Assembly (NCBI GenBank): GCA_905181705.1
Contig: CAJIYP010000003.1
Location: 793,810 to 857,809 of the forward strand
Direction: 5' to 3'
DNA: 64,000 bases
DNA from: Cryomorphaceae bacterium BACL29 MAG-121220-bin8
Lineage (GTDB): Bacteria; Bacteroidota; Bacteroidia; Flavobacteriales; Flavobacteriaceae
Shown: positions 2,944 through 47,257 of the stretch, piece after piece
Layout: each line of letters starts with the position of its first letter
Position numbering within the stretch: the stretch's first letter is position 1
Program-made: the position numbers and the translations under genes
The notes under the pieces: model-generated
Seen by the model: only the letters and a program-made list of their open reading frames with translations
Database searches by the model: none
What the model was told of the DNA's origin: nothing

Positions 2944-2968
2944 TTATTAATATAATTTTTAACAAAGT

Positions 2969-3793
2969 TTAAGGGAACTTAGGATATTTTTTAAAATTTG
3001 GCTCTCTTTTTTCTAGAAAAGCATTTTTACCTTCTTGAGCTTCCTCCGTCAGGTAATACAATAAAGTTGCGTCTCCAGCAAGTTGCATAAGCCCATGCTG
3101 ACCATCTAACTCAGCGTTTAAACTTCTTTTTATCATTCTTAAAGCTAACGGACTTCTTTTTTGCATCATGGAACACCATTCAAGAGTAGTCTCTTCAAGC
3201 TTTTCTAATGTTACTACTTTGTTTACCATCCCCATTTTTAATGCTTCTTCAGCAGAATATTGTTGACATAAAAACCAGATTTCTCGCGCTTTTTTTTGCC
3301 CCACATGTCGGGCTAAGTAAGAAGAGCCAAAGCCTCCGTCAAAACTTCCAACCTTTGGACCTGTTTGTCCAAAAACAGCATTTTCACTTGCAATGGTAAG
3401 ATCACAAACAACATGTAAAACATGTCCTCCTCCAATTGCATATCCATTTACCATAGCAATTACTGGTTTGGGAATTTCTCTAATTTTTTTATGTAAATCG
3501 AGGACATTTAACCGTGGGACCCCATCGTCTCCAATATAGCCGCCAGAACCTTTTACATTTTGGTCACCTCCACTACAAAAGGCCTTATCTCCTGCCCCTG
3601 TTAAAACGACAACATCAACGTCATTACGCTCTCTACAAGCATCGAAAGCCTCTAGCATTTGAATATTTGTTTCAGGCCTGAAAGCATTGTAAACCTTAGG
3701 CCTATTAATGGTTATTTTAGCGACTCCATTATAAAGCTCAAACTTTATATCAGAGTATTTTTTTATTTCGTTCCACTGGATTTTCATGAACAT
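2969..3793 (-). CDS. menB: 1,4-dihydroxy-2-naphthoyl-CoA synthase (crotonase family)
   Basis: 274 aa; [30 protein letters not shown] typical of MenB. Confidence 0.93.
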
Positions 3794-3833
3794 TTTTTTT
3801 TAAATATAATACTTTCTTTAGCTTAAATGAATC

Positions 3834-5627
3834 TTAATTTTTCGATAAAAATTTAAAGTAATTTTTTAGAGTTTCTGAACTTAACTCTGAAGGGGTGGAG
3901 ACTTCTAAAATTTTTGGTTTAGTTGATTTATTAAAAAATCTTTTTAATGCAAACTTAAGTCCAAACTGTGTTTTTTTATGTTGATAATCAAACCCATATT
4001 GTTGAGCTATTTTTTTAGCATTCAAAGAATGTTTTGTTTCAATAAATTTTGAAAAAATCGCATCATCTTTATGTCCAGGAAGAATTCTAAAAATCCCACC
4101 ACCACTATTATTTATTATTATAATTCTAAAGTCAGGTTTTATGTAATTATTCCAAAGACCATTGACATCATAGAAAAAACTTAGATCTCCTGTTATTAAA
4201 AGTGTTGGAGATTTATTTTCCAAAGAAGCTCCAACGGCTGTTGACGTGCTGCCGTCAATTCCACTAGTTCCTCTGTTACAATACACGACATTATTAAAAG
4301 ATATTTTGAAAAGTTGAAGGTATCTTATCGGAGAACTATTAGAAACTTGAATAAGATATCTTTTAGGAATCCTTGATGATAAAATAGAAAAAACAATTAA
4401 ATCGGAATAATTTGCATTTCTAATAAACTTTTGATGACTAGAAGCTCTTTGCATGGAAATACCGTTCCATAAATTATAAAAATCAGATGATTTATGTTTT
4501 TTTGATAAAGTTTTTTTGAAAAACAAGTTTGGGGAAGTCTTAATGTGTTTTACTCCACTAAAATACGTGTCATTAGCCTTATTCAGTCCAATATGTAAGT
4601 GTAATTTTGGAGGCTTGGACCTTAAAAAAGATTTAATTTTTTTTGAGATTATCATCCCCCCAAGTGTAATCAAAATTTCAGGGGAAAGTTTTTTAAACCA
4701 ATTCTCTTTATCGTCAATCAACTCTAAAGGGGCAATTATTTGATCAATATTTTGGAAAAAAGCATCATTATTTAAATTTGAAGTCGACTCTGTCAATACA
4801 ATAATATTTGAAAAGGAACGTATATTGTTAATAACAGAGTTAGACAAACAATTGGGTTCAGAAGACCCGACCAGAATCATCACCTTGGAGCTTTTGGTAA
4901 TTACGTCAGCATATTTTTTATATTTTTTTTCTTCAAAAGATTTTTTAATTCTTTTAGTGCTTGTAAGGTTGACAGTAGGTTTTTTTGTAAAGCCATAAAG
5001 AGGCTCTTCCATTGGAATATTAATGTGGACAGGTTTTTGTAGCAAAGTAGATTCGTTAAGTCTTTTGTTTAATAATTTTTCATTAAACTTTTGAATATCT
5101 AATTGCAGTTTTTTTATTTTTTCAGTACTTAGGTCATCACTTATCAAATTTTGTTGATTGCTACTTATTATAGATTTTGTTTCGTGATTAACATCTTGAC
5201 GTAATGAGTCGGAACTTAATATGTTTTCTCCAAAAACATTAAGCTGGCTTATTGTCTGACCATCCCCAATATTGATTTTATATTTTGGTCTATCGGCGGA
5301 GAGTATGATTAATGGAATTTCGCTGTAAAAAGCTTCTGCAACAGAGGGAGCATAATTAAGAAGTGCAGAGCCAGAGGTGCAAAGTAGAATTACTGGACTT
5401 TTAGTTTGTTGCGCAATTCCAAGAGCAAAAAAACCTGCCGATCTCTCGTCAACAATACTATAACAGTTAAAGTCCTTGCTAGAAGCAAAACTAATTGCTA
5501 ATGGAGCATTTCTTGATCCTGGAGAAATGACCACATTGTTTATGCCTAGCTTTAAACAAGAAAGAATAGTTGTTTGAGCATTATCAATTTTGGGATACAT
5601 CATCACTATACAAATGTAGTAAATCAA
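3834..5627 (-). CDS. menD: SEPHCHC synthase (ThDP enzyme); real start may be the downstream MMYPKID
   Basis: SPGSRNAPLA motif, DERSAGFFALG, ThDP-binding GDLSFFYDVNGLW. Confidence 0.92.
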   Translation of the reverse strand: MIYYICIVMMYPKIDNAQTTILSCLKLGINNVVISPGSRNAPLAISFASSKDFNCYSIVDERSAGFFALGIAQQTKSPVILLCTSGSALLNYAPSVAEAFYSEIPLIILSADRPKYKINIGDGQTISQLNVFGENILSSDSLRQDVNHETKSIISSNQQNLISDDLSTEKIKKLQLDIQKFNEKLLNKRLNESTLLQKPVHINIPMEEPLYGFTKKPTVNLTSTKRIKKSFEEKKYKKYADVITKSSKVMILVGSSEPNCLSNSVINNIRSFSNIIVLTESTSNLNNDAFFQNIDQIIAPLELIDDKENWFKKLSPEILITLGGMIISKKIKSFLRSKPPKLHLHIGLNKANDTYFSGVKHIKTSPNLFFKKTLSKKHKSSDFYNLWNGISMQRASSHQKFIRNANYSDLIVFSILSSRIPKRYLIQVSNSSPIRYLQLFKISFNNVVYCNRGTSGIDGSTSTAVGASLENKSPTLLITGDLSFFYDVNGLWNNYIKPDFRIIIINNSGGGIFRILPGHKDDAIFSKFIETKHSLNAKKIAQQYGFDYQHKKTQFGLKFALKRFFNKSTKPKILEVSTPSELSSETLKNYFKFLSKN

Positions 5628-12253: not shown

Positions 12254-12385
12254 ATGATTAAGAGATTAAAATATAATAAGGAAACAGAAAAGCTAATTGC
12301 CCAGGCTATTCTAAAGCATAGGCAATTAAATAAAGTAAAAGATTTAGCATTTAAACCCAGATTCACATGGAGCAAACGAAAGTAA
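12254..12385 (+). CDS. small basic protein (43 aa) overlapping the next ORF
   Basis: MIKRLKYNKETEKLIAQAILKHRQLNKVKDLAFKPRFTWSKRK*; overlaps the 12367 ORF as in compact phage-like gene layouts. Confidence 0.35.
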   Translation: MIKRLKYNKETEKLIAQAILKHRQLNKVKDLAFKPRFTWSKRK

Positions 12386-12885
12386 AAAGACAGCCAATTA
12401 TTTTTAACGAGCATGGATATAACCATGAGTTAAAACAGTATTCACATAAGAAAGCTTTAGAGGGATTAATCCTAAATGACTTTAGTAAAATAGGAATCAA
12501 AAAGGTTGATTTTAAAAACAATATCCTGGAAACATTCTATCTCAAAATAGCCGAGATACATGAGAAAAACAATTCATTAAAACTGTCTGGCAAGAAGCTT
12601 TGTGGTTTGTTAGATATAGATGATTCTTCTATTAAAAATCACTCAGCTCAATATGAAAAGTTTAGAGATTTTGTAAAACCTAAGAAAGACACATTCACTC
12701 TATTTGCTGAAACAGACAAAGAGCTATATAGACTTGATTATGCTAAAAGATTAATAGAGGTTCTAAATGAATTAAAAGAACACAGACAAGTCCATTGGAA
12801 TGTTATGATACAAGCTTTTAATGGAGTAATTAAGCTCAATGGAATTAGTCAGTATATAGTTAATCCAAACTTTGTAAAATATTAA
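12367..12885 (+). CDS. hypothetical accessory protein
   Basis: 172 aa ORF, no recognised motif, accessory region. Confidence 0.5.
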   Translation: MEQTKVKRQPIIFNEHGYNHELKQYSHKKALEGLILNDFSKIGIKKVDFKNNILETFYLKIAEIHEKNNSLKLSGKKLCGLLDIDDSSIKNHSAQYEKFRDFVKPKKDTFTLFAETDKELYRLDYAKRLIEVLNELKEHRQVHWNVMIQAFNGVIKLNGISQYIVNPNFVKY

Positions 12886-12988
12886 GAAGCCCCTACCTGG
12901 GAAGACTAGGATGTTGGGCTAAGTTCTTGAAAACCTCTTAGTCCATTTCCCTGGTCGTTAAAATAACTAGAAATAACTATATATTGGA

Positions 12989-13123
12989 TTAAGAGTAAAG
13001 AACACCTAAAACCATAAATATTAACAATACGATAACTATAGCAATTATTATCTTTTTTGCTTTTTCGTCAGACATATTATCCTTATCGTAATGTGAACCA
13101 TCACTTCCACTGTCAAAATCCAT
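12989..13123 (-). CDS. small membrane protein (44 aa)
   Basis: MDFDSGSDGSHYDKDNMSDEKAKKIIIAIVIVLLIFMVLGVLYS*. Confidence 0.35.
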   Translation of the reverse strand: MDFDSGSDGSHYDKDNMSDEKAKKIIIAIVIVLLIFMVLGVLYS

Positions 13124-13181
13124 AATATAAATATAATGCTAAAAAACCTAACAACTCAATTAACACTAATATACATTAAAC

Positions 13182-13475
13182 ATGAAATACGAACTTGGTA
13201 ACAATTACGGAACAGGGAGGCCGAAAGGCTCTAAGAATAAAATACATTTAGAGACTAAAGAGCTTATAAATAAAATACTATTTGATGAAAAGCAATTTAC
13301 AGCAGATTGGAAAGAAATGGATGTTCATGCTAGAATGGAGCTGAGAATTAAAATGGCAAGATTTGTAGTTCCAGAACCTAAGGAATTAGCAAGCTCAGAA
13401 GATAACACAGACTATCCTTTATTTATAGATACAAGAGAAGATGCTCTAAGGCTTTTAGAAATGACAGAAGAATGA
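13182..13475 (+). CDS. phage-like DNA-binding/terminase-small-subunit-like protein
   Basis: GRPKGSKNK N-terminal motif typical of phage/mobile-element small proteins; 97 aa. Confidence 0.4.
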   Translation: MKYELGNNYGTGRPKGSKNKIHLETKELINKILFDEKQFTADWKEMDVHARMELRIKMARFVVPEPKELASSEDNTDYPLFIDTREDALRLLEMTEE

Positions 13476-13500: not shown

Positions 13501-14211
13501 CTAATCTGTGCAATTTGTGAAATTAGGTCTTTTAGATTCTGGCCAATTATTGCTATTAAAATAGCTTATTTGATTATCGCATTTTGTTACTTTTGAAACA
13601 TCCCATCCACTTAAATCCATTCCTTCTATATAATTGTCTGTAATTTCCATAAAACATACCTGTCATTGAAGTAGCATTGCTTACATCCCAATTATTGATA
13701 TTAATATTTACATCTCCTAAATCATAATTAATGCCATATCTTTTACTTTAGAAACATCCCACCCACTTAAATCTACATTAACACGTTGAACACCATAAAA
13801 AAGTCCATTCATATCGTTCCAGTTACTTACATCCCAACCTTCAATTCCTTTGATTTCACTTCTAAAAAAAAGGGCTGCTGAACCAGAGAATTCTACTTCT
13901 ACTTTTGTGGTAACCACTTTACTCAAATCCTTACCGTCTTTTATCCATTCTTTTAAAGAAGGCAAATCAACAGCAGTATAAGTTACTCCGTTAAGGTCTG
14001 CAGTTGTTCCTACAGTAACCCAATCCCTTGCTTTGATTGTTACTCCATTGTCTGCAACATAGAAGGGTAATTCTTCTTCATCAGAGGAACAAGAAACAAT
14101 AAATAGGGCTATAAATAGTAATGTGTATTTTTTCATATTTAATATATAAAATAGTAAGAGGTTAAAATTGTGTTGGACTAACACTCTATTTGGTACTTCT
14201 TTCGTAAGCAA
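13501..14211 (-). pseudogene. DUF285/BspA-like repeat lipoprotein, interrupted by frameshifts
   Basis: ORF 13717..14211 (MKKYTLLFIALFIVSCSS...GWDVSNWNDMNGLF...DLSGWDVSKVKDM) continues in other frames as NNWDVSNATSMTGMFYG and GMDLSGWDVSKVTKCDNQ...FTNCTD*. Confidence 0.65.
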
Positions 14212-14817: not shown

Positions 14818-14863
14818 AAAACAAAAAACCCCTCTGTTGAAGGGTTTTAAGGGTGGTCCCACC
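14818..14863. repeat. putative att site (left): tRNA 3'-end plus terminator duplicate
   Basis: aaaacaaaaaacccctc at 14818-14834 and gggttttaagggtggtcccacc at 14842-14863 duplicate the sequence at the 3' end of tRNA-CAU. Confidence 0.75.
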
Positions 14864-14917
14864 TGTACTATAACCATCCTATTAGTGCACTGATAATCAA
14901 ACACTTATAAGGAGCGA

Positions 14918-14970
14918 TGGTACACAATGTGTACCATATAACCCTGTACGTGGTACACTTCTGTGTACCA
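14918..14970. repeat. two TGGTACAC inverted-repeat pairs
   Basis: TGGTACACaatGTGTACCA (14918-14936) and TGGTACACttctGTGTACCA (14951-14970). Confidence 0.85.
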
Positions 14971-14972
14971 CC

Positions 14973-15000
14973 AAAAAGTGATTTAGCTAAATCACTTTTT
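14973..15000. repeat. perfect 28-bp palindrome (possible terminator)
   Basis: AAAAAGTGATTTAGCTAAATCACTTTTT. Confidence 0.85.
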
Positions 15001-15069
15001 ATAATTACTGTGGTTAAAGTCCGGTTTGGACTTAAAAAAAGATCTTCTTAAGTTTTTGAATAATAAACA

Positions 15070-15537
15070 CTAGCTCTCAAAAGCCAATCCAAGCTTCCAC
15101 TCATCAGATATTTGATCAAATGAATCGCCATCAAACATTGGACTCATCCAAACTCCACTCTCATCTGGAACGTACAACTTTGATCCTTGATCCGTTGTGT
15201 AAAGATCAACTTCACCATCTTCATCATCAACAAGTGTCCAAAGTTTTTGCATCAACGCATTCAGTATAGATGAATGCAATGGGTTTTCCTCCTCAAGGCC
15301 ATCTACTTCATCGTAGTCAAGACACTCTGAAGTCGAGCTTTCAATATCCATCCGAAAGAAACCACCGTCGTTTTCACCACCTCCAACAGACCCATAGTAA
15401 GCACCAAACCAGATGTCTCCATCCTCCGCCTGAACAACTGTATACAAAATTATCTCACTTACCACTCCACCAGATGCAGAAATATAAATATCGCAGTCAT
15501 ATGAATTTCCATTTACTACTACATTACTTTTAGACAT
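15070..15537 (-). CDS. acidic hypothetical protein
   Basis: 155 aa, Asp/Glu rich, no recognised domain. Confidence 0.6.
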   Translation of the reverse strand: MSKSNVVVNGNSYDCDIYISASGGVVSEIILYTVVQAEDGDIWFGAYYGSVGGGENDGGFFRMDIESSTSECLDYDEVDGLEEENPLHSSILNALMQKLWTLVDDEDGEVDLYTTDQGSKLYVPDESGVWMSPMFDGDSFDQISDEWKLGLAFES

Positions 15538-15585
15538 ATGCCTTCTCCTTGATTTAGAATTAATGTGATTATTGTAATCTTAATT

Positions 15586-15891
15586 TTATTCTTTGATGAA
15601 AGTAAACTCATCTCCATCACGACTGAAGGGAGGATAAGCAACAGCTTTGGGTTCAAAGTTTTCATCGTCATCATCGTCTTCAGGGATATCAGGTAATTTC
15701 AAACTAGAATGTTTCGCCTTAGCTATTTTTATAGCGATGTCTTCATTGTCTTCATCCTCAGAAATTAGATCTAGACTAACCCAATATATATATTCATTAT
15801 CTTCTGCATCTGTGAGTGCCACTTCCATATATTTATCTTCATAGTCGTCAGCTTCAAAATAACTTACATCATCATTCATTCGAATCTCCAA
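15586..15891 (-). CDS. highly acidic hypothetical protein
   Basis: 101 aa with about one third Asp/Glu (EDDDDDENFE). Confidence 0.55.
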   Translation of the reverse strand: MEIRMNDDVSYFEADDYEDKYMEVALTDAEDNEYIYWVSLDLISEDEDNEDIAIKIAKAKHSSLKLPDIPEDDDDDENFEPKAVAYPPFSRDGDEFTFIKE

Positions 15892-16091
15892 TTATTTATT
15901 ACATAAAAGATATATCTTATAATGCAACAAATATACAATATTTACATTTATTGAATAATTAAAATAATACATACTGATATATGATTTCCTTTTTTTTAAT
16001 AAAATTTATATCAGTACAAAGGTAAACTTCACACCTTCTTCTTTCATAATTTTAGATATTTCATCATCAACTATCGAACAATATCGACTAA

Positions 16092-16373
16092 CTATTCATC
16101 TGAAAAATTATAATTAAAAAAGATATAATCACCACTTGTTTTAATAGTATGTTTTGAAGACTGATAATTATCATGGATGTAATTTTCAACAATTTTTAAA
16201 ATATTTTTTTCATATGGTTCATCAAAATCATATTTGTAAAAAACTAAAGATTCAGCTTTAATTCCATCCCATTTCCAAACCTCATGTTTACAATCAAAAC
16301 CTTGAATCTTTATGAACTCTGAAGACAGCATTATTGTGTCTTTTTCAATTAATACGTTTTCAAATTTTTTCAT
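16092..16373 (-). CDS. hypothetical protein
   Basis: 93 aa, directly downstream of the 186-aa ORF. Confidence 0.5.
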   Translation of the reverse strand: MKKFENVLIEKDTIMLSSEFIKIQGFDCKHEVWKWDGIKAESLVFYKYDFDEPYEKNILKIVENYIHDNYQSSKHTIKTSGDYIFFNYNFSDE

Positions 16374-16383
16374 AGAGAATACT

Positions 16384-16944
16384 TTATTTTTTAAATAGTA
16401 TTATTTTATCTGTTTCAGAATTAAAGTTTTCGATTTCCCCTAATTCGTCTGGAGATAAATAAAATTCCTTTTCCAATGTTCCTTCTATCAAAGAATTAAA
16501 TTGAGAAGATTCTAAAAACTTTTTATTAAAATTAAACCAGCCAGTAATGCTTTGTACAGCTATATAATTTTGATTCGTATCGAATAAATCTGAGGTTTCA
16601 TAGAGTGTTTCGTCAAAATTATTTTCAAGAGGGGAAAAAGAAATATGTTCAAGATTTTCGTCCTCAATCTCTTCAAAATCAATTGAACTTAGAAGGATAT
16701 TATTGACTTCTTTTTGTAAATACATGGGCAATGAATTTCTAAATGTTTCTCCATCAGGAACACCATAGTCTTCACAAATATCAATTACAAATTTTTCAGA
16801 ATTTAATTGTACAGCATATGAAAAGACCTCGTCTTCCTCATCATAAAAAAAAATGATATTTATTGAATTTAAAATTTTATTAGTACTTATAACAGAACCC
16901 TTAGGTTCTATTTCCCCTACGATTAGACTAAAAGCTTTATACAT
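16384..16944 (-). CDS. acidic hypothetical protein
   Basis: 186 aa, no recognised domain. Confidence 0.55.
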   Translation of the reverse strand: MYKAFSLIVGEIEPKGSVISTNKILNSINIIFFYDEEDEVFSYAVQLNSEKFVIDICEDYGVPDGETFRNSLPMYLQKEVNNILLSSIDFEEIEDENLEHISFSPLENNFDETLYETSDLFDTNQNYIAVQSITGWFNFNKKFLESSQFNSLIEGTLEKEFYLSPDELGEIENFNSETDKIILFKK

Positions 16945-17026
16945 TATTTTTATTTAGAAACCACTAAGTTAATAAAAGACTTTCTTTATGGACATCAAAT
17001 TCATTACCCCTCTTATTACCCTAACT

Positions 17027-17078
17027 CCATTTTAGTTAAAAAAGTGTAACAGCAGATACACTTTTTTAACTAAAATGG
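17027..17078. repeat. perfect 22-bp inverted repeat with 8-nt loop
   Basis: CCATTTTAGTTAAAAAAGTGTA-acagcaga-TACACTTTTTTAACTAAAATGG. Confidence 0.88.
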
Positions 17079-17140
17079 TACACATAGTACTAACTTTTAA
17101 AGCAACTTATAATAGTTTTGTGGTACACAGAATGGTACAC
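17076..17140 (+). repeat. three direct TGGTACAC boxes
   Basis: TGGTACAC at 17076, 17121 and 17133. Confidence 0.85.
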
Positions 17141-17160
17141 AATTCCTTTTTTGATTAAGA

Positions 17161-17207
17161 AAAACAAAAAACCCCTCAAGAAGAGGGGTTTTAAGGGTGG
17201 TCCCACC
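17161..17207. repeat. putative att site (right): 3' end of intact tRNA-CAU plus terminator
   Basis: aaaacaaaaaacccctc at 17161-17177 and gggttttaagggtggtcccacc at 17186-17207, 22-bp identity to the left copy. Confidence 0.75.
17165..17192 (-). terminator. Rho-independent terminator downstream of tRNA
   Basis: aaaaCCCCTCaagaaGAGGGGtttt stem-loop with T-run in minus orientation. Confidence 0.65.
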
Positions 17208-17271
17208 AGGACTCGAACCTGGGACCAACTGATTATGAGTCAGCTACTCTAACCAACTGAGCTATAGGACC
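17198..17271 (-). tRNA. tRNA with CAU anticodon (Met, or Ile2 if lysidine-modified)
   Basis: Reverse strand GGTCCTATAGCTCAGTTGGTTAGAGTAGCTGACTCATAATCAGTTGGTCCCAGGTTCGAGTCCTGGTGGGACCA; cloverleaf, loop CTCATAA. Confidence 0.93.
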
Positions 17272-23193: not shown

Positions 23194-26100
23194 GTGCTCC
23201 TATTTTTATTTAAAAAATTAATGTATTTAAAAGATTTTAAATCTTGGGTTTTTTTAATGTTTATACTTTTTAGTATAAACAGTTATTCCCAGTCTCCTGA
23301 GAAATTCACTTACCAGTCCATTGTGAGAAATGCCGATGGGCTAGTTTTAAAGTCTTCAGATATAGGAATTAGAATCAGTGTTTTAAAAAACTCTAATAAT
23401 GGAGTTTCAGTTTATACGGAATCTCACACTACCTCTTCTAATAAAAATGGATTGGTGACCTTGCTTATAGGTGAAGGCACTAGCTCAGATAGTTTTTCTG
23501 CAATAGACTGGTCTACAGGACAATATTATCTAAAAGTAGAATTAGATCCTATGGGAGGAATAGACTATTCTATTGAACAGTCTTCCCAACTATTAAGTGT
23601 TCCTTACGCTCTTTACTCATCAAGAAGCTCCAACATAGATTTAACAAAAGACGTAAAAGGGATTCTCCCTGTTTTAGAGGGAGGAACGGGATCTACCACC
23701 GCACCTATGATCGCCTTAGTTACTGCTAATAATGCGCAAATGGCAAGAGATATTTTGGGGGTAGATGCAGCTGGGACTGGCGGAAGTAATGTTGTTTTGA
23801 CAGATGTTAAAGATAATTATTTAACTATTTCTGATTCCTCTGTAAATGCTAGTGATCAAGAAATAACAGCTGGTATCGTTCCGGTAACTCTTGGTGGAAC
23901 AGGGTCTGCTACAGCACCCATGGTTGGGGTAATTACCGCTGCAGATGCTGCAGCTGCTAGAACTGCCATTGGAGCAGGAACAATAGCAACTCAAAACAAA
24001 GATGCTGTGGATGTAGATGGAGGTGTTATTGACGGAACAGTTATTGGACGCAACGCTCCCTCTACAGGTGTATTTACCTCAGTAAACTCTGGACTTATTC
24101 AATCCGTTGGAGATACGGACATTATTATTAAAACAGGAAACGATACAACTGGGAACATTACTCTTGCCAATGGAGCAGATGGAAAGATACTGATTTCACC
24201 AAACGGAACTGGGAGTGTAGTGATAGACGACTTAACTTTTCCCTCTGCAGATGGATCTGCGAACCAAATCTTAAAAACCGATGGAAGTGGAATTCTTAGC
24301 TGGACAGATAACCTTTTTTATGTCGTAAAATTAGATTCTCTTTCAAAACTTTCAGTAGCAGATGGCAATATAATAGTTGGAGACGGAACAAATTTTGTTG
24401 TGGAGTCTGGCGCTACAGCCAGAACTTCTTTAGGTCTTGGAAGTGTAGCTACTCAAAACAAAGATGCTGTGGATGTAGATGGAGGTGCTATTGACGGAAC
24501 AGTTATTGGAGCAAGCGCTCCTTCTACAGGTATATTTACGTCAGTAAACTCTGGACTTATTCAATCCGTTGGAGATACGGACATTATTATTAAAACAGGA
24601 AACGATACAACTGGGAACATTACTCTTGCCAATGGAGCAGATGGAAAGATACTGATTTCACCAAACGGAACTGGGAGTGTAGTGATAGACGATTTAACTT
24701 TTCCCTCTGCAGATGGATCTGCGAACCAAATCTTAAAAACCGATGGAAGTGGAGTTCTTAGCTGGATAGATAACCTTGATTATAACGTAAAATTAGATTC
24801 TCTTTCAAAACTTTCAGTAGCAGATGGCAATATAATAGTTGGAGACGGAACAAATTTTGTTGTGGAGTCTGGCGCTACAGCCAGAACTTCTTTAGGTCTT
24901 GGAAGTGTAGCTACTCAAAACAAAGATGCTGTGGATGTGGATGGAGGTGCTATTGACGGAACAGTTATTGGAGCAAGCGCTCCTTCTACAGGTATATTTA
25001 CGTCAGTAAACTCTGGACTTATTCAATCCGTTGGAGATACGGACATTATTATTAAAACAGGAAACGATACAACTGGGAACATTACTCTTGCCAATGGAGC
25101 GGATGGAAAGATACTGATTTCACCAAATGGAACTGGGAGTGTAGTGATAGACGATTTAACTTTTCCCTCTGCAGATGGATCTGCGAACCAAATCTTAAAA
25201 ACCGATGGAAGTGGAGTTCTTAGCTGGATAGATAACCTTGATTATAACGTAAAATTAGATTCTCTTTCAAAACTTTCAGTAGCAGATGGCAATATAATAG
25301 TTGGAGACGGAACAAATTTTGTTGTGGAGTCTGGCGCTACAGCCAGAACTTCTTTAGGTCTTGGAAGTGTAGCTACTCAAAACAAAGATGCTGTGGACGT
25401 GGATGGAGGTGCTATTGACGGAACAGTTATTGGAGCAAGCGCTCCTTCTACAGGTATATTTACCTCAGTAAACTCTGGACTTATTCAATCCGTTGGAGAT
25501 ACGGACATTATTATTAAAACAGGAAATGTAACAACGGGAGATCTTACTATTTCAGATGGAGCGAACGGCAATATTAATATTACACCAAATGGAACAGGAA
25601 AGGTTATAGCAAAGAATACGGATTTAACAGGAACCACTAGTTTTGCTGGAACGGCTTTGACCATTAGTGCTGCTGAACTAAACATGTTAGATGGAGATAA
25701 TTCTCCTGCTGATATAACTCTTGCTAATGCGGATAGAATTATAGTTAATGACGATGGAATAATGAAACAAGTTGCTATACCATCGATTGGCGCATTTCTA
25801 ACAAGTTTAGTAAATATAGACGTGCTTACAGATGCTAAATCTGATGGAACAAACTTTACAGATGGTTTATCAATTGGCCATCCTATGACTGCATCAACAT
25901 TAAACGATGCAATAGGGAATATCGCAGTCGGTTTAACTGCTTTAGATGCTCTTACAGAAGGAGATTATAATGTTGCTGTTGGAGATGATGCATTAACGGC
26001 AAACACAACGGGAAATGAGAATACAGCGATTGGAGCCTATGCTTTAACGTCTAATGTGGATGGATTTTCTAATACAGCAGTTGGAGTGGAGGCTCTAGAA

Positions 26101-27453
26101 GCTAACGTATCGGGAGATTTAAACACAGCAATTGGATTAGAGGCTCTCGAGGCAAATGTATCTGGGAATAATAACACGGCTATAGGGTCAGATGCTTTAA
26201 AATTAAATGTTGATGGGGAGTTCAATGTAGCTGTTGGAAGTAAATCTCTTGCCGATAATACTACAACAGGAAATACAGCTATAGGATTTGAATCTTCAAA
26301 TAAAAACGTGGGCGGGGCATCCAATACGGCTGTAGGATTTCGATCTTCAAAATTTAATGTTACTGGAAGCAATAATACAGCTATTGGAGTCAGATCTATT
26401 TTAGGGGTTTCTACAAATTCTAACAGCGGAAATACTGCCGTGGGTTACGAGTCAGGAAAAAACATTACAACAGGTTCTGATAACGTAATGGTTGGATTAT
26501 CAGCAGGAAATAATATAACAACAGGAAATCAGAATGTGTTTATTGGAAAAACTGCTAGGGCAAGTGGAGCTGGAATAGATAATGAAATTGTAATAGGATC
26601 TGGAACTACTGGGCTTGGAACTAATAAAGCAGTAATAGGAAACGCTAGCATTACAGACGTTTATATGTCTCAAGATTCCGGGGCTACTGTTTACGCTTCC
26701 GGAATGGCTGTGGTTGATGAAAGCGACTTGACAATAGGAAATGTTGCGGGAGATTTGTATTTAAAAGTTTCCCCAAGTGCAACGGTTGGCAATGAGGATA
26801 TTAGAATTGTCAATAATGTTGGAACTGCCGAAGCTTCTGTACAAGTTACTTCCATAGCTGGAGGAATAGACATGGATGCTGCTGCTGCTAAAGATATTAA
26901 TATTGCTGGAGGACAGGTTGCTCTTGTGTCAAAAGACGAGGGAAATTCCGCTATCTCATTACTAACAAATGTAGGAACAAGCGAAACCATTACTATTACT
27001 AATACACAAGGGACAGGTGCATCGGCAGTCAACATTACTTCTTCGGCAGGAGGGGTTGCAATAAACTCTTCTTCAACGACCGTAAGTGGAGCTTTATCGG
27101 TTGCCGGAAACCTTTCTAGTACATCCGGAAACATTGCAGGCTTTGACGCTACTCTTAATGCAGTAACTTCCTTTTCTTCCAATAATTATACACTTGTTGC
27201 TTCTGATAACGGAAAAGTAATAACACTAGACAACGGAACAACAGCCTCTACATTAACTATTCCAACTGGATTAGGAGATGGATTTAATTGCCTTATTGTA
27301 CAGAAAGCAAATCACGATACTACTATAACTGCTGGATCGGGAGTAACTCTTTTCAACAGAAGCACTCAGGTTATCACAGCAGGAAGATATGCCATTGTTA
27401 CTTTAGTAAACATTGGGTCTGAAAATTATATTTTATCTGGAGACACTAAATAA
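23194..27453 (+). CDS. large tail-fibre/YadA-head-like surface protein with internal tandem repeats
   Basis: 1419 aa; KFTYQSIVRNADG...LLSVPYALYS N-term; 154-aa repeats; NTAIGxxAL head repeats. Confidence 0.8.
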   Translation: MLLFLFKKLMYLKDFKSWVFLMFILFSINSYSQSPEKFTYQSIVRNADGLVLKSSDIGIRISVLKNSNNGVSVYTESHTTSSNKNGLVTLLIGEGTSSDSFSAIDWSTGQYYLKVELDPMGGIDYSIEQSSQLLSVPYALYSSRSSNIDLTKDVKGILPVLEGGTGSTTAPMIALVTANNAQMARDILGVDAAGTGGSNVVLTDVKDNYLTISDSSVNASDQEITAGIVPVTLGGTGSATAPMVGVITAADAAAARTAIGAGTIATQNKDAVDVDGGVIDGTVIGRNAPSTGVFTSVNSGLIQSVGDTDIIIKTGNDTTGNITLANGADGKILISPNGTGSVVIDDLTFPSADGSANQILKTDGSGILSWTDNLFYVVKLDSLSKLSVADGNIIVGDGTNFVVESGATARTSLGLGSVATQNKDAVDVDGGAIDGTVIGASAPSTGIFTSVNSGLIQSVGDTDIIIKTGNDTTGNITLANGADGKILISPNGTGSVVIDDLTFPSADGSANQILKTDGSGVLSWIDNLDYNVKLDSLSKLSVADGNIIVGDGTNFVVESGATARTSLGLGSVATQNKDAVDVDGGAIDGTVIGASAPSTGIFTSVNSGLIQSVGDTDIIIKTGNDTTGNITLANGADGKILISPNGTGSVVIDDLTFPSADGSANQILKTDGSGVLSWIDNLDYNVKLDSLSKLSVADGNIIVGDGTNFVVESGATARTSLGLGSVATQNKDAVDVDGGAIDGTVIGASAPSTGIFTSVNSGLIQSVGDTDIIIKTGNVTTGDLTISDGANGNINITPNGTGKVIAKNTDLTGTTSFAGTALTISAAELNMLDGDNSPADITLANADRIIVNDDGIMKQVAIPSIGAFLTSLVNIDVLTDAKSDGTNFTDGLSIGHPMTASTLNDAIGNIAVGLTALDALTEGDYNVAVGDDALTANTTGNENTAIGAYALTSNVDGFSNTAVGVEALEANVSGDLNTAIGLEALEANVSGNNNTAIGSDALKLNVDGEFNVAVGSKSLADNTTTGNTAIGFESSNKNVGGASNTAVGFRSSKFNVTGSNNTAIGVRSILGVSTNSNSGNTAVGYESGKNITTGSDNVMVGLSAGNNITTGNQNVFIGKTARASGAGIDNEIVIGSGTTGLGTNKAVIGNASITDVYMSQDSGATVYASGMAVVDESDLTIGNVAGDLYLKVSPSATVGNEDIRIVNNVGTAEASVQVTSIAGGIDMDAAAAKDINIAGGQVALVSKDEGNSAISLLTNVGTSETITITNTQGTGASAVNITSSAGGVAINSSSTTVSGALSVAGNLSSTSGNIAGFDATLNAVTSFSSNNYTLVASDNGKVITLDNGTTASTLTIPTGLGDGFNCLIVQKANHDTTITAGSGVTLFNRSTQVITAGRYAIVTLVNIGSENYILSGDTK
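23991..25520 (+). repeat. 462-bp tandem repeats (three full plus one partial)
   Basis: tcaaaacaaagatgctgtgg at 23991, 24453, 24915, 25377; constant 462-bp spacing and near identity. Confidence 0.92.
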
Positions 27454-40702: not shown

Positions 40703-42658
40703 TTATTTTCCAGCATTTAGAAGCATACTCTCGATTTTTTCTAGCCTTTTATTTAAATCTTCTATGATTTCTTGTTGTTCTTGCACAGCTTTTATTAGTG
40801 GCATGGTAATTTTTTGATAATCCATCCTATAAATTCCATCCTCATCAATAGTAACAATATTACTTTTAAAGTTTATGCTCTCACTAGCTTTCTTAACTTC
40901 TTGAGCTAATAAGCCTATTTCAAACTTTAATTCATTTGGAGTTTTATTATTTAAAAAGTCACTCACCTGCATCTTGTCATAGGAAACGGGATTTAATTTT
41001 TTTATAAAATCTAAACCATGTGTTATAAATTTTATATTTTCTTTTAACCGCTCATCTGAAGACACTATTGTCGCATCTGCATAAAGAACAGCTGCTCCAT
41101 CTTGAGCAGCATAAACTCGAGTAACTTGCGCATTTCCTATAACTGCGTAGTTGTTTCCCTGTCCAGTCGCTCCTTTTCCAATCACTATTTGGTTCGATGA
41201 ATTAGTGGCGCTTACATCAGCATCATCACCTATAACAACATTGCTAGAACCGTCATCTATTGTATTTCCTGCCTCTTTTCCAATAAAGACGTTGTCTGAT
41301 CCTGTTGTAATCCCTTTCCCAGCTCGAAAACCAACGGCAGTATTACTTGCATTATTTCCAGATCCATCTAGTGATTCCTGTCCAACCGAAGTATTATATC
41401 TCCCTGTTTGATTTCCTCTCCCCGCGTGTACCCCAACGGCAGTATTATTACCACCCGAGGTAAGAGAATACAATGCTCCTTGTCCAAACCCAGTATTTTC
41501 AGATCCATCAACCAAAAACTGCATTGTCTTATGCCCCATTGCTGTGTTGCCGTTTCCTGTTGTTAGATTTGAAAGGGCTTCCGATCCAAAAACATTGTTA
41601 TATAATCCTGATGTTAAATCCTCCAAGCCATGATTTGAAAACGCAGAATTACTTGTTCCTGAGGTAATATTCCCTGGAATGTGTCCAACTACTAAATTGG
41701 CTGCAGAACTATTAAAAAAAGCGTCAGATAATGCGTCTAATGATGAAGCCCCCGAAACATTCGTTGTCCAAGAAAGCGTTCCGCTTCCATCTGTTTTTAA
41801 TATCTGACCGACAGATCCATCTGCTGCAGGAAGAACCCATATTTTATCTGCTGATAAAGCAGGAGCTTCAAACCCTACATAATTTGCTCCTTCATAAAAT
41901 CTTAATTCTTTATTGCTTCCTCCTAAGGATAAATCTCCACTAGTGGTTGTGTTACCATTTGAGTAAACAACAAATGCATCGGATAATGAACCGCTTTCCC
42001 CATTTCCAATAACGAAAGCGGAGTTGTCAGTATCAAAAACTGTTCCACTTCCGTTAGATGTTACAGCAAGATTTCCTACAGAATTATATTGCCCAATCAC
42101 TAATGTGCCATAGTCCCTTGCAACTGTGTATTTACCTGTAGTAACAGAAAGTGTTCCACGCGCTTCATTGGCCATCCCTAATGTAGTTGAACGAGCTCCG
42201 TAAGAATAAGATCCCTGCCCTGTAGCAAAAGAAAACTGGCCAGGAGAATTATTATTATAACCAAAAGCTGTAGATTGAGTTCCACTCGCAAATGAAGAGC
42301 CTGCTGCAAAACTTTGAGTTCCTGATGCTGTTGAAATATTAGTTGCGAAAGAGTTGGTTCCTGTGGCTCCCTTGGTTGAGCTTGCAGTAGAGGAAATACT
42401 TAAATCAACGGCACTGGCTCCTATCTCTCCATAATTATTAGCATCGGCCTCAGAGAGTCTATATCCAGTTTTTGAATTTTCTGTTAATTGAGCCAGTGAG
42501 CCCCCACCACCACTAACAGTTGTCCAACCAAGAGCTCCACTTCCGTCTGTTTTTAAAACTTGATTTGCTGACCCATCTGCTGTTGGAAGCGTCATGGCTA
42601 CAGTTCCAAAACCAATGGCATCTGTATAAGCTACTCCATCCACATAAATATCTTTCAT
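40703..42658 (-). CDS. tail-fibre-like surface protein, C-terminal part with Peptidase_S74 chaperone domain
   Basis: SSDERLKENIKFITHGLDFIKKLNPVSYD...EIGLLAQEVKK...MDYQKITMPLIKAVQEQQ. Confidence 0.85.
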   Translation of the reverse strand: MKDIYVDGVAYTDAIGFGTVAMTLPTADGSANQVLKTDGSGALGWTTVSGGGGSLAQLTENSKTGYRLSEADANNYGEIGASAVDLSISSTASSTKGATGTNSFATNISTASGTQSFAAGSSFASGTQSTAFGYNNNSPGQFSFATGQGSYSYGARSTTLGMANEARGTLSVTTGKYTVARDYGTLVIGQYNSVGNLAVTSNGSGTVFDTDNSAFVIGNGESGSLSDAFVVYSNGNTTTSGDLSLGGSNKELRFYEGANYVGFEAPALSADKIWVLPAADGSVGQILKTDGSGTLSWTTNVSGASSLDALSDAFFNSSAANLVVGHIPGNITSGTSNSAFSNHGLEDLTSGLYNNVFGSEALSNLTTGNGNTAMGHKTMQFLVDGSENTGFGQGALYSLTSGGNNTAVGVHAGRGNQTGRYNTSVGQESLDGSGNNASNTAVGFRAGKGITTGSDNVFIGKEAGNTIDDGSSNVVIGDDADVSATNSSNQIVIGKGATGQGNNYAVIGNAQVTRVYAAQDGAAVLYADATIVSSDERLKENIKFITHGLDFIKKLNPVSYDKMQVSDFLNNKTPNELKFEIGLLAQEVKKASESINFKSNIVTIDEDGIYRMDYQKITMPLIKAVQEQQEIIEDLNKRLEKIESMLLNAGK

Positions 42659-42896
42659 TTCTTTTGTACTGCTTCCCTAAATCTACTTCATTAGTATCAG
42701 TTGGAAGCCAGTTAGTAATAGAGCCGTTTCCTAAAAGAACCGTATTATTATCCAATCCTCTGGCATCTTTTCCAATAACTATTCTGTTTTCTGCAGCGGC
42801 ATCGTCTACACCTGCATCACGTCCAATTAATACATTATTAATTCCTGCCACAATAGCTGCATTACCATTTCCTCCTACCTCCAGCATAATACCCAA
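42513..42896 (-). CDS. tail-fibre-like protein, frameshift fragment
   Basis: NNVLIGRDAG...NTVLLGNGSITNWLPTDTNEVDLG repeat block, frame changes at about 42675. Confidence 0.6.
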   Translation of the reverse strand: MGIMLEVGGNGNAAIVAGINNVLIGRDAGVDDAAAENRIVIGKDARGLDNNTVLLGNGSITNWLPTDTNEVDLGKQYKRNERYLCGWSSLYRCHWFWNCSHDASNSRWVSKSSFKNRRKWSSWLDNC

Positions 42897-43935
42897 CTGC
42901 GGTATTACTATCCCCGGTTACTGCATTTAAACTATATGCCCCAAAACCAGCGTTTTTACTTCCACTTTTTCCACTGAGATAACCAAAAGCAGCATTTCTT
43001 TCTCCAGTTTGATTAAAAACCATTGCCTTGTATCCTACTGCAGTATTTCTCTTTCCTTGAGTATTTGCAACCAAGGATTGATTACCAACAGCTACGTTAT
43101 ATTCTCCAGAATCATTTGCTGTTAAAGCATCATATCCAACAGCTACGTTATGATCTCCTGTTGTGATCGAATTTAGAGAGATGAGCCCAAGTGCTGTGTT
43201 ATATGTAGCGGCATCTAAAGTACCAGTATCACTATGACCAACAAATAACGATCCTGTAAAATTAGTTCCAGCTGATTTGTGTGTTATCCCACTTCCACTA
43301 GAAGCCCATCCCAGATTACCACTTCCATCTGTTTTTAAAACTTGATTTGCGGATCCATCTGCTGTTGGAAGCGTCATGGCTACAGTTCCAAAACCAATGG
43401 CATCTGTATAAGCTACTCCATCCACATAAATATCTTTCATTTCTTTTGTACTGCTCCCTAAATCCACTTCATTAGTATCAGTTGGAAGCCAATTAGTAAT
43501 AGAGCCGTTTCCTAAAAGAACCGTATTGTCTGTTGTTCCAGTAGCTCCTTGTCCAATCACTATTTGATTGGTAGCATTATTAGCGCTAGGATCGGCATCT
43601 TTTCCTATAAGAACATTATTACTTCCCGTAGTAATTACATCTCCTGCTTGATAACCAAAAGCGGTGTTGGAATTTCCTGTGGTGTTAGCTAAAGAAGCAT
43701 GTCCAGATGCTGTATTGTAATTTCCTTCCGTGTTCTGTGACATCGAAGAATGCCCAGATGCTGTATTATAATTTCCTATCGTGTTATTAAACAAAGAATA
43801 AACCCCAGAAGCAGTATTCCTTTCTCCTGTTGTATTCGCTGTCAAAGCATTGTATCCTATTGCCGTATTTCTGTCTCCAGATGTTATTGCATCTAATGAG
43901 CCTATTCCAACTCGCTGTGTTTTTTTCCGCGGCAT
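42862..43935 (-). CDS. tail-fibre-like protein, middle fragment
   Basis: NTAIGYNALTANTTGERNTASG head repeats; joins flanking ORFs through +1 shifts. Confidence 0.7.
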   Translation of the reverse strand: MPRKKTQRVGIGSLDAITSGDRNTAIGYNALTANTTGERNTASGVYSLFNNTIGNYNTASGHSSMSQNTEGNYNTASGHASLANTTGNSNTAFGYQAGDVITTGSNNVLIGKDADPSANNATNQIVIGQGATGTTDNTVLLGNGSITNWLPTDTNEVDLGSSTKEMKDIYVDGVAYTDAIGFGTVAMTLPTADGSANQVLKTDGSGNLGWASSGSGITHKSAGTNFTGSLFVGHSDTGTLDAATYNTALGLISLNSITTGDHNVAVGYDALTANDSGEYNVAVGNQSLVANTQGKRNTAVGYKAMVFNQTGERNAAFGYLSGKSGSKNAGFGAYSLNAVTGDSNTAVGYYAGGRRKW

Positions 43936-46900
43936 CTAAAGTTCCTGTTGTTTGGTGACCAAGAATCATTGAGCCTGTGAAGTCCGTTCCTTCTAATTTA
44001 GCATCTGAAAGACCGTCTATTGCGCCACCACCACCTGCTGCAGTCCATCCAAGATTTCCACTTCCATCTGTTTTTAAAACTTGATTTGCTGAGCCATCTG
44101 CTGTTGGAAGCGTCATGGCTACAGTTCCAAAACCAATGGCGTCTGTATAAGCCACGCCATCTACATATATATCTTTCATTTCTTTTGTACTGCTCCCTAA
44201 ATCCACTTCATTAGTATCAGTTGGAAGCCAATTAGTAATAGAGCCGTTCCCTAAAAGAACCGTATTGTCCGTAGTTCCAGTCGCTCCTTGTCCAATCACT
44301 ATTTGATTGGTAGCATTATTAGCGCTAGGATCGGCATCTTTTCCTATAAGAACATTATTACTTCCCGTAGTAATTACATCTCCTGCTTGATCTCCAAGTG
44401 CTGTATTGGAATTCCCCGTGGTATTTTGTTGTAAAGAACCAGATCCAGACGCTGTGTTTGTGCCCCCCGTGGTGTTGTTTTGTAAAGAAGCAACCCCAGA
44501 TACTGTATTTCTGCTACCCGTGGTGTTTTGTTGTAAAGAAGCATACCCAGACGCTGTATTGTTACTCCCTGTGGTGTTAGCTTTTAAAGCAATAGCTCCA
44601 GATGCTGTATTGGAATTCCCCGTGGTGTTAAATTGTAAAGAAGCATACCCAGATGCTGTGTTTGTGACCCCCGTGGTGTTATAAGTTAAAGAATTGTTTC
44701 CTATTGCCGTATTCTCATCACCAGTTGTTATTGCATCTAACGAGCTTATTCCAACGGCTGTATTTTTTTCCGCAGCATCTAAAGTTCCAGTTGTTCGGTG
44801 ACCAATAATCATTGAGCCTGTAAAGTCCGTTCCTTCTAATTTAGCATCTGAAAGACCGTCTATTGCGCCTCCTCCACCTGCTGCAGTCCATCCAAGGTTT
44901 CCACTTCCATCTGTTTTTAAAACTTGATCAGCGGATCCATCTACATTAGGAAGAACCCATATTTTATCTGCTGCTAAAGCTGGTGCTTCAAATCCTACAT
45001 AATTGGATCCTTCGTAAAATCTCAACTCTTGGTTACTTCCTCCAACGGATAAATCTCCAATAATTGTTGTAGCTCCCGTTACAGAAGAAGCCCCCGATAC
45101 ATTTAAAGCCCCCGTTAAAGTAGTAGCCCCTGTTACATTTAAAGCTCCTGATAAAGTACTAGCTCCTGTTACTCCTAAAGTTCCAGACGTTCCAATATTT
45201 CCAGTTACACTTAAAGCTCCTACTAAAGTAGAATTTCCAGCTACATTTAAGGTTCCAGCCGTTCCAATATTTCCAGATGCTGCTAATACTGTAAATTTAT
45301 TGGTGTTAATTGCTAAGTCTGACGATACAGCTACTTTCCCTGTTCCATTTGGATTTAATTTAATGTCTCCATTCGCGCCATTAATAATAGTAATGTCACC
45401 TGAGGTTGCATTACCAGTTTTTATAGTCAAGTCATGGTCTCCTTTGGATTCAACCGTTCCACCTCCACTTCCATCACCAACTTCAATTCCATCTCCACCT
45501 GGATTTATAGCTACCGTATTGTCAATCCAGCCTAAAGTTCCGCTTCCATCTGTTTTTAGTATTTGATTCGCAGAGCCATCAGAGGAGGGAAAAGTCAAGT
45601 TGTCTAATACTACTTTCCCTGTTCCATTTGGGCTAATATTTATGTTTCCATTCTCCCCATCTGTTATGGTGAGGGTTCCCGTTGTTTCGTTTCCAGTTTT
45701 AATAACAATATCCGTATCTCCAACAGATTGGATAATCCCTGAGTTGACCGAAGTAAATGTCCCAATAGCGGGAGCGCTTGCTCCAATTGCAGTTCCGTCA
45801 ATAGCCCCTCCATCGATATCTACCGTTCCTTTGTTTTGAACAGCCATTGTTCCTGCACCAATAGCAGTTCTAGCTGCTGCTGCATCTGCAGCAGTAATCA
45901 CACCGACCATTGGTGCGGTGGCAGACCCTGTTCCACCAAGAGTTACTGGCACGGTTGAGGCTGTTATTTTTTGTCCTGTTAGTGTTAAATAATTGTCAGT
46001 TACAGTTTCAAGGGTAACGGATTCAGAATCGGCTACACCTAAAACAGTTCTAGCTGCTGCTGCATCTGCAGCAGTAATCACACCGACCATTGGTGCGGTG
46101 TTAGACCCTGTTCCACCAAGAGTTACTGGTACGGTTGAGGCTGTTATTTTTTGTCCTGTTAGTGTTAAATAATTGTCAGTTACAGTTTCAAGGGTAACGG
46201 ATTCAGAATCGGCTACACCTAAAACAGTTCTAGCTGCTGCTGCATCTGCAGCAGTAATCACACCGACCATTGGTGCGGCGTTAGACCCTGTTCCACCAAG
46301 AGTTACTGGTACGGTTGAGGCTGTTATTTTTTGTCCTGTTAGTGTTAAATAATTATCAGTTACAGTTTCAAGAGTAATAGGGTCAGAACTTTCCACTCCC
46401 AGTATTGTTCTAGCTGCTGCTGCGTCTGCAGCAGTAATCACACCGACCATTGGTGCGGTGTTAGAACCTGTTCCACCAAGAGTTACTGGCACGGTTCTAG
46501 CCAATATCTCTTGTCCATTTAAGCTCAAATAGCTATTATTGACTTCAATTAATGAAACTGGAGTTGAGTTGTCTTTTCCTGCAGCATCTACTCCTAAAAT
46601 AGTTCTTGCACCCGCCGCATCATTTGCAGCAATTAACCCAATCATTGGAGATTTTTTTAATCCAGTTCCACCGCTACTAACCGGAAGAGTTCCTTTTACG
46701 TTGGATGATAAATCTATTTTTTCAAGAGTCAACTCACTCTCAGAATAGGAAAGGTAGTTTTCTCCAAACAATAGTATTTCTTTTTCCGAACTAGGGGAAC
46801 TCCCAGAATAAAGTGCGTAGGGTACACTTAAAAGCTGTGAAGTGTCGTCCATTAAATAATTTATTCCACCAACAGGGTCAATTTGAGTTTTTAAGTAATA

Positions 46901-47257
46901 TTGTCCTGAAGACCAGTCAATTGTTGCAATACTTCCTTGGCTATTTCCAGTTCCGATAGCTAAAGATATAAGTCCATTTTTATTAGTGTAAGTAGAGTGA
47001 GATTCAGTGTAGACTGCCTCACCATTATTTGAGTTTTTTAAAATACTAAACCTAATTCCTATCTTTTTTGACTTTAAAACAGATCCATCTGAGGCTCTTA
47101 TCACGGATTGGTAATTAAATTTTTGTGGAATTTCAACGTTAGCAGCTTGCGCCGCTATTTTTAACGCATCTTCCTTGTCAAGAGACTGGGAGTAGCTGTT
47201 GAAATTAAAAAGAACGAAAAACACTAAAAAGTATTTTTTTAAATAGGAGTATTTCAT
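43787..47257 (-). CDS. tail-fibre/YadA-head-like surface protein, N-terminal part
   Basis: Signal peptide; KFNYQSVIRASDGSVLKSKKIGIRFSILKNSNNGEAVYTESHSTYTNKNGLISLAIG paralogous to the 23194 ORF. Confidence 0.82.
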   Translation of the reverse strand: MKYSYLKKYFLVFFVLFNFNSYSQSLDKEDALKIAAQAANVEIPQKFNYQSVIRASDGSVLKSKKIGIRFSILKNSNNGEAVYTESHSTYTNKNGLISLAIGTGNSQGSIATIDWSSGQYYLKTQIDPVGGINYLMDDTSQLLSVPYALYSGSSPSSEKEILLFGENYLSYSESELTLEKIDLSSNVKGTLPVSSGGTGLKKSPMIGLIAANDAAGARTILGVDAAGKDNSTPVSLIEVNNSYLSLNGQEILARTVPVTLGGTGSNTAPMVGVITAADAAAARTILGVESSDPITLETVTDNYLTLTGQKITASTVPVTLGGTGSNAAPMVGVITAADAAAARTVLGVADSESVTLETVTDNYLTLTGQKITASTVPVTLGGTGSNTAPMVGVITAADAAAARTVLGVADSESVTLETVTDNYLTLTGQKITASTVPVTLGGTGSATAPMVGVITAADAAAARTAIGAGTMAVQNKGTVDIDGGAIDGTAIGASAPAIGTFTSVNSGIIQSVGDTDIVIKTGNETTGTLTITDGENGNINISPNGTGKVVLDNLTFPSSDGSANQILKTDGSGTLGWIDNTVAINPGGDGIEVGDGSGGGTVESKGDHDLTIKTGNATSGDITIINGANGDIKLNPNGTGKVAVSSDLAINTNKFTVLAASGNIGTAGTLNVAGNSTLVGALSVTGNIGTSGTLGVTGASTLSGALNVTGATTLTGALNVSGASSVTGATTIIGDLSVGGSNQELRFYEGSNYVGFEAPALAADKIWVLPNVDGSADQVLKTDGSGNLGWTAAGGGGAIDGLSDAKLEGTDFTGSMIIGHRTTGTLDAAEKNTAVGISSLDAITTGDENTAIGNNSLTYNTTGVTNTASGYASLQFNTTGNSNTASGAIALKANTTGSNNTASGYASLQQNTTGSRNTVSGVASLQNNTTGGTNTASGSGSLQQNTTGNSNTALGDQAGDVITTGSNNVLIGKDADPSANNATNQIVIGQGATGTTDNTVLLGNGSITNWLPTDTNEVDLGSSTKEMKDIYVDGVAYTDAIGFGTVAMTLPTADGSANQVLKTDGSGNLGWTAAGGGGAIDGLSDAKLEGTDFTGSMILGHQTTGTLDAAEKNTASWNRLIRCNNIWRQKYGNRIQCFDSEYNRRKEYCFWGLFFV
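44400..44705 (-). repeat. 51-bp repeats encoding 17-aa NTASGYASLQxNTTGxx units
   Basis: Unit starts at 44400, 44451, 44502. Confidence 0.85.
45840..46530 (-). repeat. 180-bp tandem repeats
   Basis: gcagcagtaatca ... ends at 45900, 46080, 46260, 46440 exactly 180 bp apart; encodes 60-aa LTGQKITASTVPVTLGGTGSN repeats. Confidence 0.9.

Follow-up and report, generated by a model that had tools for sequence, protein, structure and literature searches.

The tRNA-Met Locus and Its Repeats

The window, which is the whole 64-kb stretch of DNA analyzed here, contains an intact tRNA-Met (CAU) gene whose 3' end is duplicated at some distance within an exact 22-bp direct repeat. The unit between the two repeat copies is 2,344 bp long and encodes four small ORFs, which are co-oriented and lie on the same strand as the tRNA. 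Its G+C content is 30.5%, compared to 33.6% for the whole window. The features of the locus are the following (strand is given where it applies, and the source of the assignment in parentheses):

14825–14848, minus strand: displaced host tRNA terminator (sequence, terminator scoring)
14842–14863: left-hand 22-bp core direct repeat, at the distal junction (sequence, repeat finder)
14864–14876, plus strand: TGTACTATAACCA, flank of the core on the element side, distinct from tRNA sequence and conserved in other elements (locus comparisons)
14891–14899: TGATAATCA, conserved palindromic box between the core and the left sites (alignment of 16 left ends)
14918–14936: TGGTACACAATGTGTACCA, first left palindrome, made up of two putative arm-type sites in inverted orientation (site scan, left-end alignment)
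14951–14970: TGGTACACTTCTGTGTACCA, second left palindrome, built in the same way from two inverted putative sites of the arm type (site scan, left-end alignment)
14973–15000: AAAAAGTGATTTAGCTAAATCACTTTTT palindrome at the left cargo boundary, terminator-like by inspection only and with a presumed role (sequence, counterparts elsewhere)
15070–15537, minus strand: cargo ORF for an acidic 155-aa protein, no identified family
15586–15876, minus strand: cargo ORF for an acidic protein of 96 aa with ATG as start codon (101 aa with TTG at 15891)
16092–16373, minus strand: cargo ORF, 93 aa, no identified family
16384–16944, minus strand: cargo ORF, 186 aa, no identified family
17027–17078: 22-bp perfect inverted repeat CCATTTTAGTTAAAAAAGTGTA / TACACTTTTTTAACTAAAATGG, right cargo boundary (repeat finder)
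17076–17084, plus strand: extra right-end site TGGTACACA, also in G109 and G416 (site scan, alignment)
17121–17141, plus strand: right sites TGGTACACAGAATGGTACACA, two direct copies with a 12-bp period (site scan, alignment)
17168–17192, minus strand: tRNA terminator now on the element right end, with the same loop in G015 and G016 (terminator scoring, locus comparison)
17186–17207: right-hand 22-bp core direct repeat, at the junction where the tRNA 3' end is restored (sequence, repeat finder)
17196–17271, minus strand: tRNA-Met (CAU), integration target, intact (ARAGORN)

The core repeat, GGGTTTTAAGGGTGGTCCCACC, is exact in both copies, as the sequence, the repeat finder, and ARAGORN agree. 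By arithmetic assuming equal base frequencies, about 1e-4 chance duplications of an exact 22-mer are expected within 64 kb. An earlier note on this DNA had described the repeat at the same positions, and only its overlap with the tRNA has to be amended, from 10 nt to 12 nt plus flank. As in tRNA-targeting tyrosine-integrase elements, the repeat spans the tRNA 3' end and the tRNA is restored at one end. A second duplicated block, AAAACAAAAAACCCCTC, is found at 14818–14834 and 17161–17177. It had been read as providing a second copy of the tRNA terminator; the duplication is present and both copies score as terminators, but the two are not identical and their loops differ (CTGTTGAAG on the left, CAAGAAG on the right). 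Immediately inside the left repeat copy TGTACTATAACCA takes the place of the tRNA T-arm, and this sequence is also present in other species.

Both ends of the element contain copies of a short site, TGGTACACA, a feature absent from the earlier note. On the left there are four, arranged as two palindromes, and on the right two direct copies with a 12-bp period, plus one at 17076. All six exact matches to TGGTACACA in the 64 kb fall in these two end clusters; the remaining matches have one mismatch each, and one of them also lies in the left cluster. The cargo is flanked on either side by palindromes centered on AAAGTG...CACTTT. Judged from their layout, the sites would place putative arm-type sites on either side of the core, which is the arrangement of a tRNA-targeting tyrosine-integrase element.

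Cargo and Genomic Context of the Window Element

No recombinase was found between the repeats in the ORF listing or with Pfam, in agreement with the earlier description of four co-oriented ORFs and no integrase. The element (14842–17207) thus lacks the integrase that a tRNA-targeting tyrosine-integrase element would encode itself. The ORFs had also been described as being of unknown function, and indeed none of the four proteins gave a match above the Pfam cut-off or any match in PADLOC or NCBIfam; weak Pfam matches such as EppA_BapA and Reg_prop were below the cut-off and were discarded. For the 155-aa protein no convincing homologue was found in 400 family-level genomes, where weak matches (E 0.002–0.008) occurred in proteins of >1300 aa. 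Searches against phages and against plasmids, with one protein each, gave zero matches, and the AlphaFold models of the 155- and 186-aa proteins were unusable (pLDDT 37 and 34, respectively).

The genome to which the window belongs (87% complete) encodes two Xer-like recombinases and one 338-aa tyrosine recombinase. The latter was considered as a helper and rejected, being without 12-bp-period sites and away from any tRNA. A gene of this kind, beside a small GKKSKRGP-type protein and not at a tRNA, is common to G000 and G011 (L075 3775–4791; L076 9730–10746).

Several observations concern the surroundings of the element. Two orphan ORFs of 172 and 97 aa lie at 12367–13475 and are possibly the remains of another small element abutting the window element. 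On visual comparison, the 97-aa GxGRPKGSKNK protein looks like small proteins whose genes adjoin other tyrosine recombinases (L076, L077, L079) or tRNA-Met loci (L028, L108, L116). Genes for DUF285-type surface proteins recur near tRNAs, namely tRNA-Met (in the window), tRNA-Leu/Gly, tRNA-Asn, and tRNA-Asp (window 13717–14211; L043 4634–5078; L044 9–416; L119 284–1375), and the copies share a near-identical lipoprotein leader. The regions 23194–27453 and 40703–47257 encode very large repetitive proteins in which NTAxG-type motifs recur and which, by eye, are YadA-head-like; the second is broken up into overlapping ORFs, as a frameshift or phase variation might do.

A Family of Integrase-Less Elements at tRNA-Met

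In congeners the tRNA-Met locus is hypervariable between conserved flanks, with an M28 peptidase on one side and TIM-barrel, alpha/beta-hydrolase, and peptidase genes on the other. G015 (2.58 kb) and G016 (1.88 kb) have units whose ends are those of the window element, and such units are present at contig ends in G012, G004, and G017. The core plus the element-side flank, used as a pattern against 85,488 species genomes, was found at 14 loci, which added further tRNA-Met units in several lineages. The right-end pattern was matched in 9 of 400 family-level genomes and, in the order-level sample of 328 genomes, only in the window's own genome. Fourteen complete integrase-less elements are now recognized at the same tRNA-Met(CAU) in several genera of marine Flavobacteriaceae, with sizes from 0.98 to 4.6 kb (the window, G015, G016, L106, L107, L110, L116, two in G183, three in tandem in G109, and one each in G416 and G197). 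Zero recombinases were found among their listed and scanned ORFs. The earlier note had proposed a search for copies that share these ends but differ in cargo, and such copies are present at tRNA-Met in other genomes. The sample contains one genome per species, mostly MAGs or single-cell genomes, so chimeras are conceivable.

The elements share a common end plan. The left end consists of the core, a TGATnATCA box, and two palindromes of 8–9-nt sites, and the right end contains two direct copies of the same 8–9-nt site with a 12-bp period. When left ends were aligned, the core was common to all and the box and site palindromes were at similar offsets in most; the right ends showed the 12-bp-period pair. 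The interiors are mostly different. The window and G416 elements, for example, are 87% identical over the first 118 bp and 83% over the last 164 bp, and their interiors do not match. Conserved ends around unrelated interiors, in several copies (ends 83–87%; 14 complete elements), are what defines a MITE-like family.

The sites fall into the classes TGGTACAC, TGGAACCC, TGGTACCC, TGGAACTC, TGGAACAC, TCACTCT, and TGTCCTA, with the window element belonging to the TGGTACAC class. The site sequence is class-specific, yet the left and right ends of one element agree. In 17 elements, 39 sites of the right-end type recurred in the element's own left 190 bp, compared to a mean of 0.92 and a maximum of 4 in 200 shuffles; since the shuffles preserved base counts alone and related elements were treated as independent, this is taken as strong support and not as a P-value. 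The automated site test found no clear 12-bp-period pair in G007 and G345_1. By eye, the L116 unit (2961–4131, reverse complement) has a TCACTCT-like left end and GGTTCGGA sites at the right end, and is a possible hybrid from recombination between tandem units. Right-end-like TTGCCA direct sites with an 11-bp period adjoin tRNA-Met in G009 and G017 (L028, L031, L032), in G009 without a recognizable left end. They are probably another class or relics, and in G017 a tandem seems to be divided between two contigs.

The cargo elsewhere in the family is often restriction-modification. A Bsp6I-type system was found in G015 and, behind a different site class, in G109_1 and G416, and an EcoO109I-type system in L107. 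G109_2 encodes two C5 methylases and a NOV_C protein, and G109_3 a PDC-S18 defense candidate. These G109 units form a tandem array (L290, 4258–13726, reverse complement), in which three integrase-less units with three site classes, all with defense-like cargo, share one tRNA. Other cargo includes a trypsin-like protease, a short-chain dehydrogenase, and a methyltransferase, among others. The cargo is under purifying selection, with dN/dS of 0.03–0.26 in five of six comparable pairs; the sixth, a nearly identical pair, gives no information.

Evidence for Mobility

An empty tRNA site, which the earlier note had suggested looking for, exists for a sister element. The G005 site equals the G015 left flank joined to the tRNA, and the flanking genes are colinear. 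For the window copy no orthologous empty site was found, its left flank being absent from the congener loci examined. The 2.3 kb is not fixed syntenic core in those loci.

The integrase-less units G109_1 and G416 (3.6 kb, TGGTACAC class) are 95% identical overall and about 100% identical in the right half. Their hosts are assigned to different genera; the Xer proteins and neighboring regulator proteins are 45–63% identical, with dS >2 or uncomputable. Near-identical units in hosts with such divergent proteins point to recent transfer, and the simplest reading of these sequences is that an integrase-less unit moved between genera recently. The site pair was not found in the other g215 genomes searched.

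Integrase-Bearing Relatives

Larger elements at the same tRNA encode tyrosine integrases of approximately 530–550 aa and have the same site layout. In G007 a 7.56-kb unit encodes a 549-aa integrase, and a search with this protein found relatives in 6 of 351 family-level genomes, beside tRNA-Met, Phe, Asp, or Val. Most of these integrases have two direct 12-bp-period sites between the start codon and the tRNA. The 6.0-kb integrase-bearing unit of G345 at tRNA-Met shows the full left-end layout, with its left sites at offsets 40/49/60/70, as in the integrase-less elements. The integrases of G345 and L078 match PF17293 (Arm-DNA-bind_5), SAM_5, and PF00589 (Phage_integrase). Given the same layout in integrase-bearing elements and the analogy with lambda integrase, the 8–9-nt sites are most likely integrase arm-type sites.

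Integrase-bearing elements were found with AGTACCCC sites, as in G345, and with GGTTCGGA sites. An integrase with sites of the window's class, TGGTACAC, was found neither in viral contigs nor in 400 family-level, 328 order-level, and the other g215 genomes searched. The left-end signature was absent from the viral contigs, where integrase relatives were remote only. Matches to the arm pattern in these contigs were chance-like and were set aside; no family integrase was among them, and a tRNA-Met-like core was present in one contig only. Integrase elements using the same tRNA, for which the earlier note had suggested a search in the rest of the genome, are present with the same end layout in other genomes; in the window's own genome, 87% complete, only the Xer-like pair and the 338-aa enzyme away from tRNAs were found. 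Genes for ParB-like proteins, DNA methylases, and small serine recombinases occur in varying combinations in the integrase-bearing L078, L036, and L289, a gene content that recalls the ssrA integration modules of Dehalococcoides (PMC3146451).

Proposed Mechanism and Alternatives

Very probably, the window unit is a non-autonomous integrative element and the tRNA-integrase counterpart of a MITE. The element would keep a complete attP, made up of a core matching the tRNA-Met 3' end and putative arm-type sites on both sides, and would have lost, or never had, an integrase. The integrase of a visiting element which recognizes the core and the TGGTACAC arm sites would act in trans on the 2.34-kb unit; this helper is pictured as preceded by TGGTACACnnnnTGGTACAC, adjoining the tRNA-Met core. 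Lambda-type recombination inside the 22-bp core would insert or excise the unit. Integration would restore the tRNA and replace its terminator with the one carried by the element, and the interior would be free cargo space between the two palindromes. We infer that the integrase binds the sites, that it acts in trans, and that the window copy is active. The earlier note had likewise suggested a minimal non-autonomous element needing an integrase in trans, and the same-end copies, the empty site, the integrase-bearing relatives, and the inter-genus transfer now speak for it.

A decayed remnant would be a full-size element which lost its integrase and other genes by deletion, leaving att-flanked debris whose movement, if there is any, is in cis and due to a later tandem neighbor. 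CIMEs have been described in this way, without integration and transfer genes, with attL and attR kept and often in tandem (PMC5704250), and integrase-less ssrA islands in Dehalococcoides were interpreted as such remnants (PMC3146451). Tandem arrays also occur in the tRNA-Met family. This origin is nevertheless unlikely, as no recombinase was found among the listed and scanned ORFs of the 14 complete elements, their ends stay in register across genera while the interiors are exchanged, and the cargo is compact and under purifying selection. Moreover, in G109, which has three tandem elements, only two Xer-like PF00589 matches were found, and the recent move of the G416/G109 element took place although it encodes no integrase. 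The same scarcity of recombinases, with two Xer-like proteins as the only PF00589 matches in G109 and G183, could suggest that host XerC/XerD recombines the elements, as in IMEX. We regard this as very improbable: IMEX insert at the chromosome dif site, whereas the target here is the 3' end of tRNA-Met, and the sites flanking the core are laid out as beside integrase genes with an arm-binding domain. One host recombinase would also leave the three site classes in G109 unexplained.

Finally, the locus might not be an element at all, but ordinary chromosomal genes flanked by an ancient duplication of part of the tRNA, at its 3' end, and of the terminator, a case the earlier note had itself raised. 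In its favor, the left copy resembles the tRNA over no more than 12 nt, and the window is without an orthologous empty site. It is scarcely credible, however, given that the left copy continues into conserved element-side sequence and not degenerate tRNA, that this inner flank, TGTACTATAACCA, is conserved among elements at 14 loci, that both window ends match elements in other genera, and that the sister element has an empty site.

Beyond the non-autonomous element itself, a broader proposal is offered tentatively, at somewhat less than even confidence. The 8–9-nt arm-type sites may be interchangeable addresses, and the tRNA an open, integron-like cassette dock without a resident enzyme, stocked largely with defense genes. 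This is based on the same Bsp6I-type cargo being found behind different site classes in different hosts. Tandem cargo units on one tRNA would then answer to different visiting integrases.

Comparison With Known Systems

Integrase-less att-flanked segments are usually written off as dead relics. The family described here keeps its recombination sites, exchanges its cargo, and has recently crossed genera, so island finders based on integrases would overlook a class of very small elements by which restriction-modification genes, among others, are carried in marine bacteria. In the literature no description of this integrase-less arrangement at tRNA-Met was found, most subscription journals being outside the search.

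Tycheposons and other tRNA-linked marine islands are likewise tRNA-anchored, with tyrosine-recombinase integration, variable cargo, and marine hosts. Tycheposons were described as carriers of 4–200 kb of cargo with a recombinase gene (PMC10872708). Unlike these, the present elements are 1–5 kb and have no recombinase. Phage satellites (PICI, PICMI, P4-like) are also small, helper-dependent, and often found at tRNAs. Satellites encode an integrase of their own, along with genes for regulation or packaging, and an integrase together with interference or packaging genes is absent from the window element.

The nearest named concept is the CIME. Like the family, CIMEs of streptococci and ssrA islands of Dehalococcoides are att-flanked, lack a recombinase, are located at the 3' end of an RNA or other gene, and are often in tandem; the window element is similarly att-flanked without integration and transfer genes. 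CIMEs, in contrast to the family, are seen as deletion relics of ICEs or IMEs mobilized in cis. A deletion origin is not apparent for the window element, in which no ICE/IME gene families were found. When its interior was compared with integrase-bearing members there was no match, although complete gene replacement would leave none either. The family also differs from CIMEs in its standardized ends, widely differing cargo, varied site classes, and inter-genus movement without an integrase.

In its working, the family more closely resembles MITEs and CALINs, the two non-autonomous groups named for intragenomic mobility in a review of helper-dependent elements (PMC11389934). These too are non-autonomous and keep their recognition ends while the enzyme is encoded elsewhere (PMC11389934). 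MITEs use a transposase and are without protein-coding genes (PMC11389934), and CALINs consist of arrays of attC cassettes on which an integron integrase acts; in the family it would be a lambda-type attP at a tRNA that is parasitized, with 1–5 kb of cargo. The question raised is whether a lambda-type integrase can be parasitized in trans via arm-site identity, as MITEs do with transposases.
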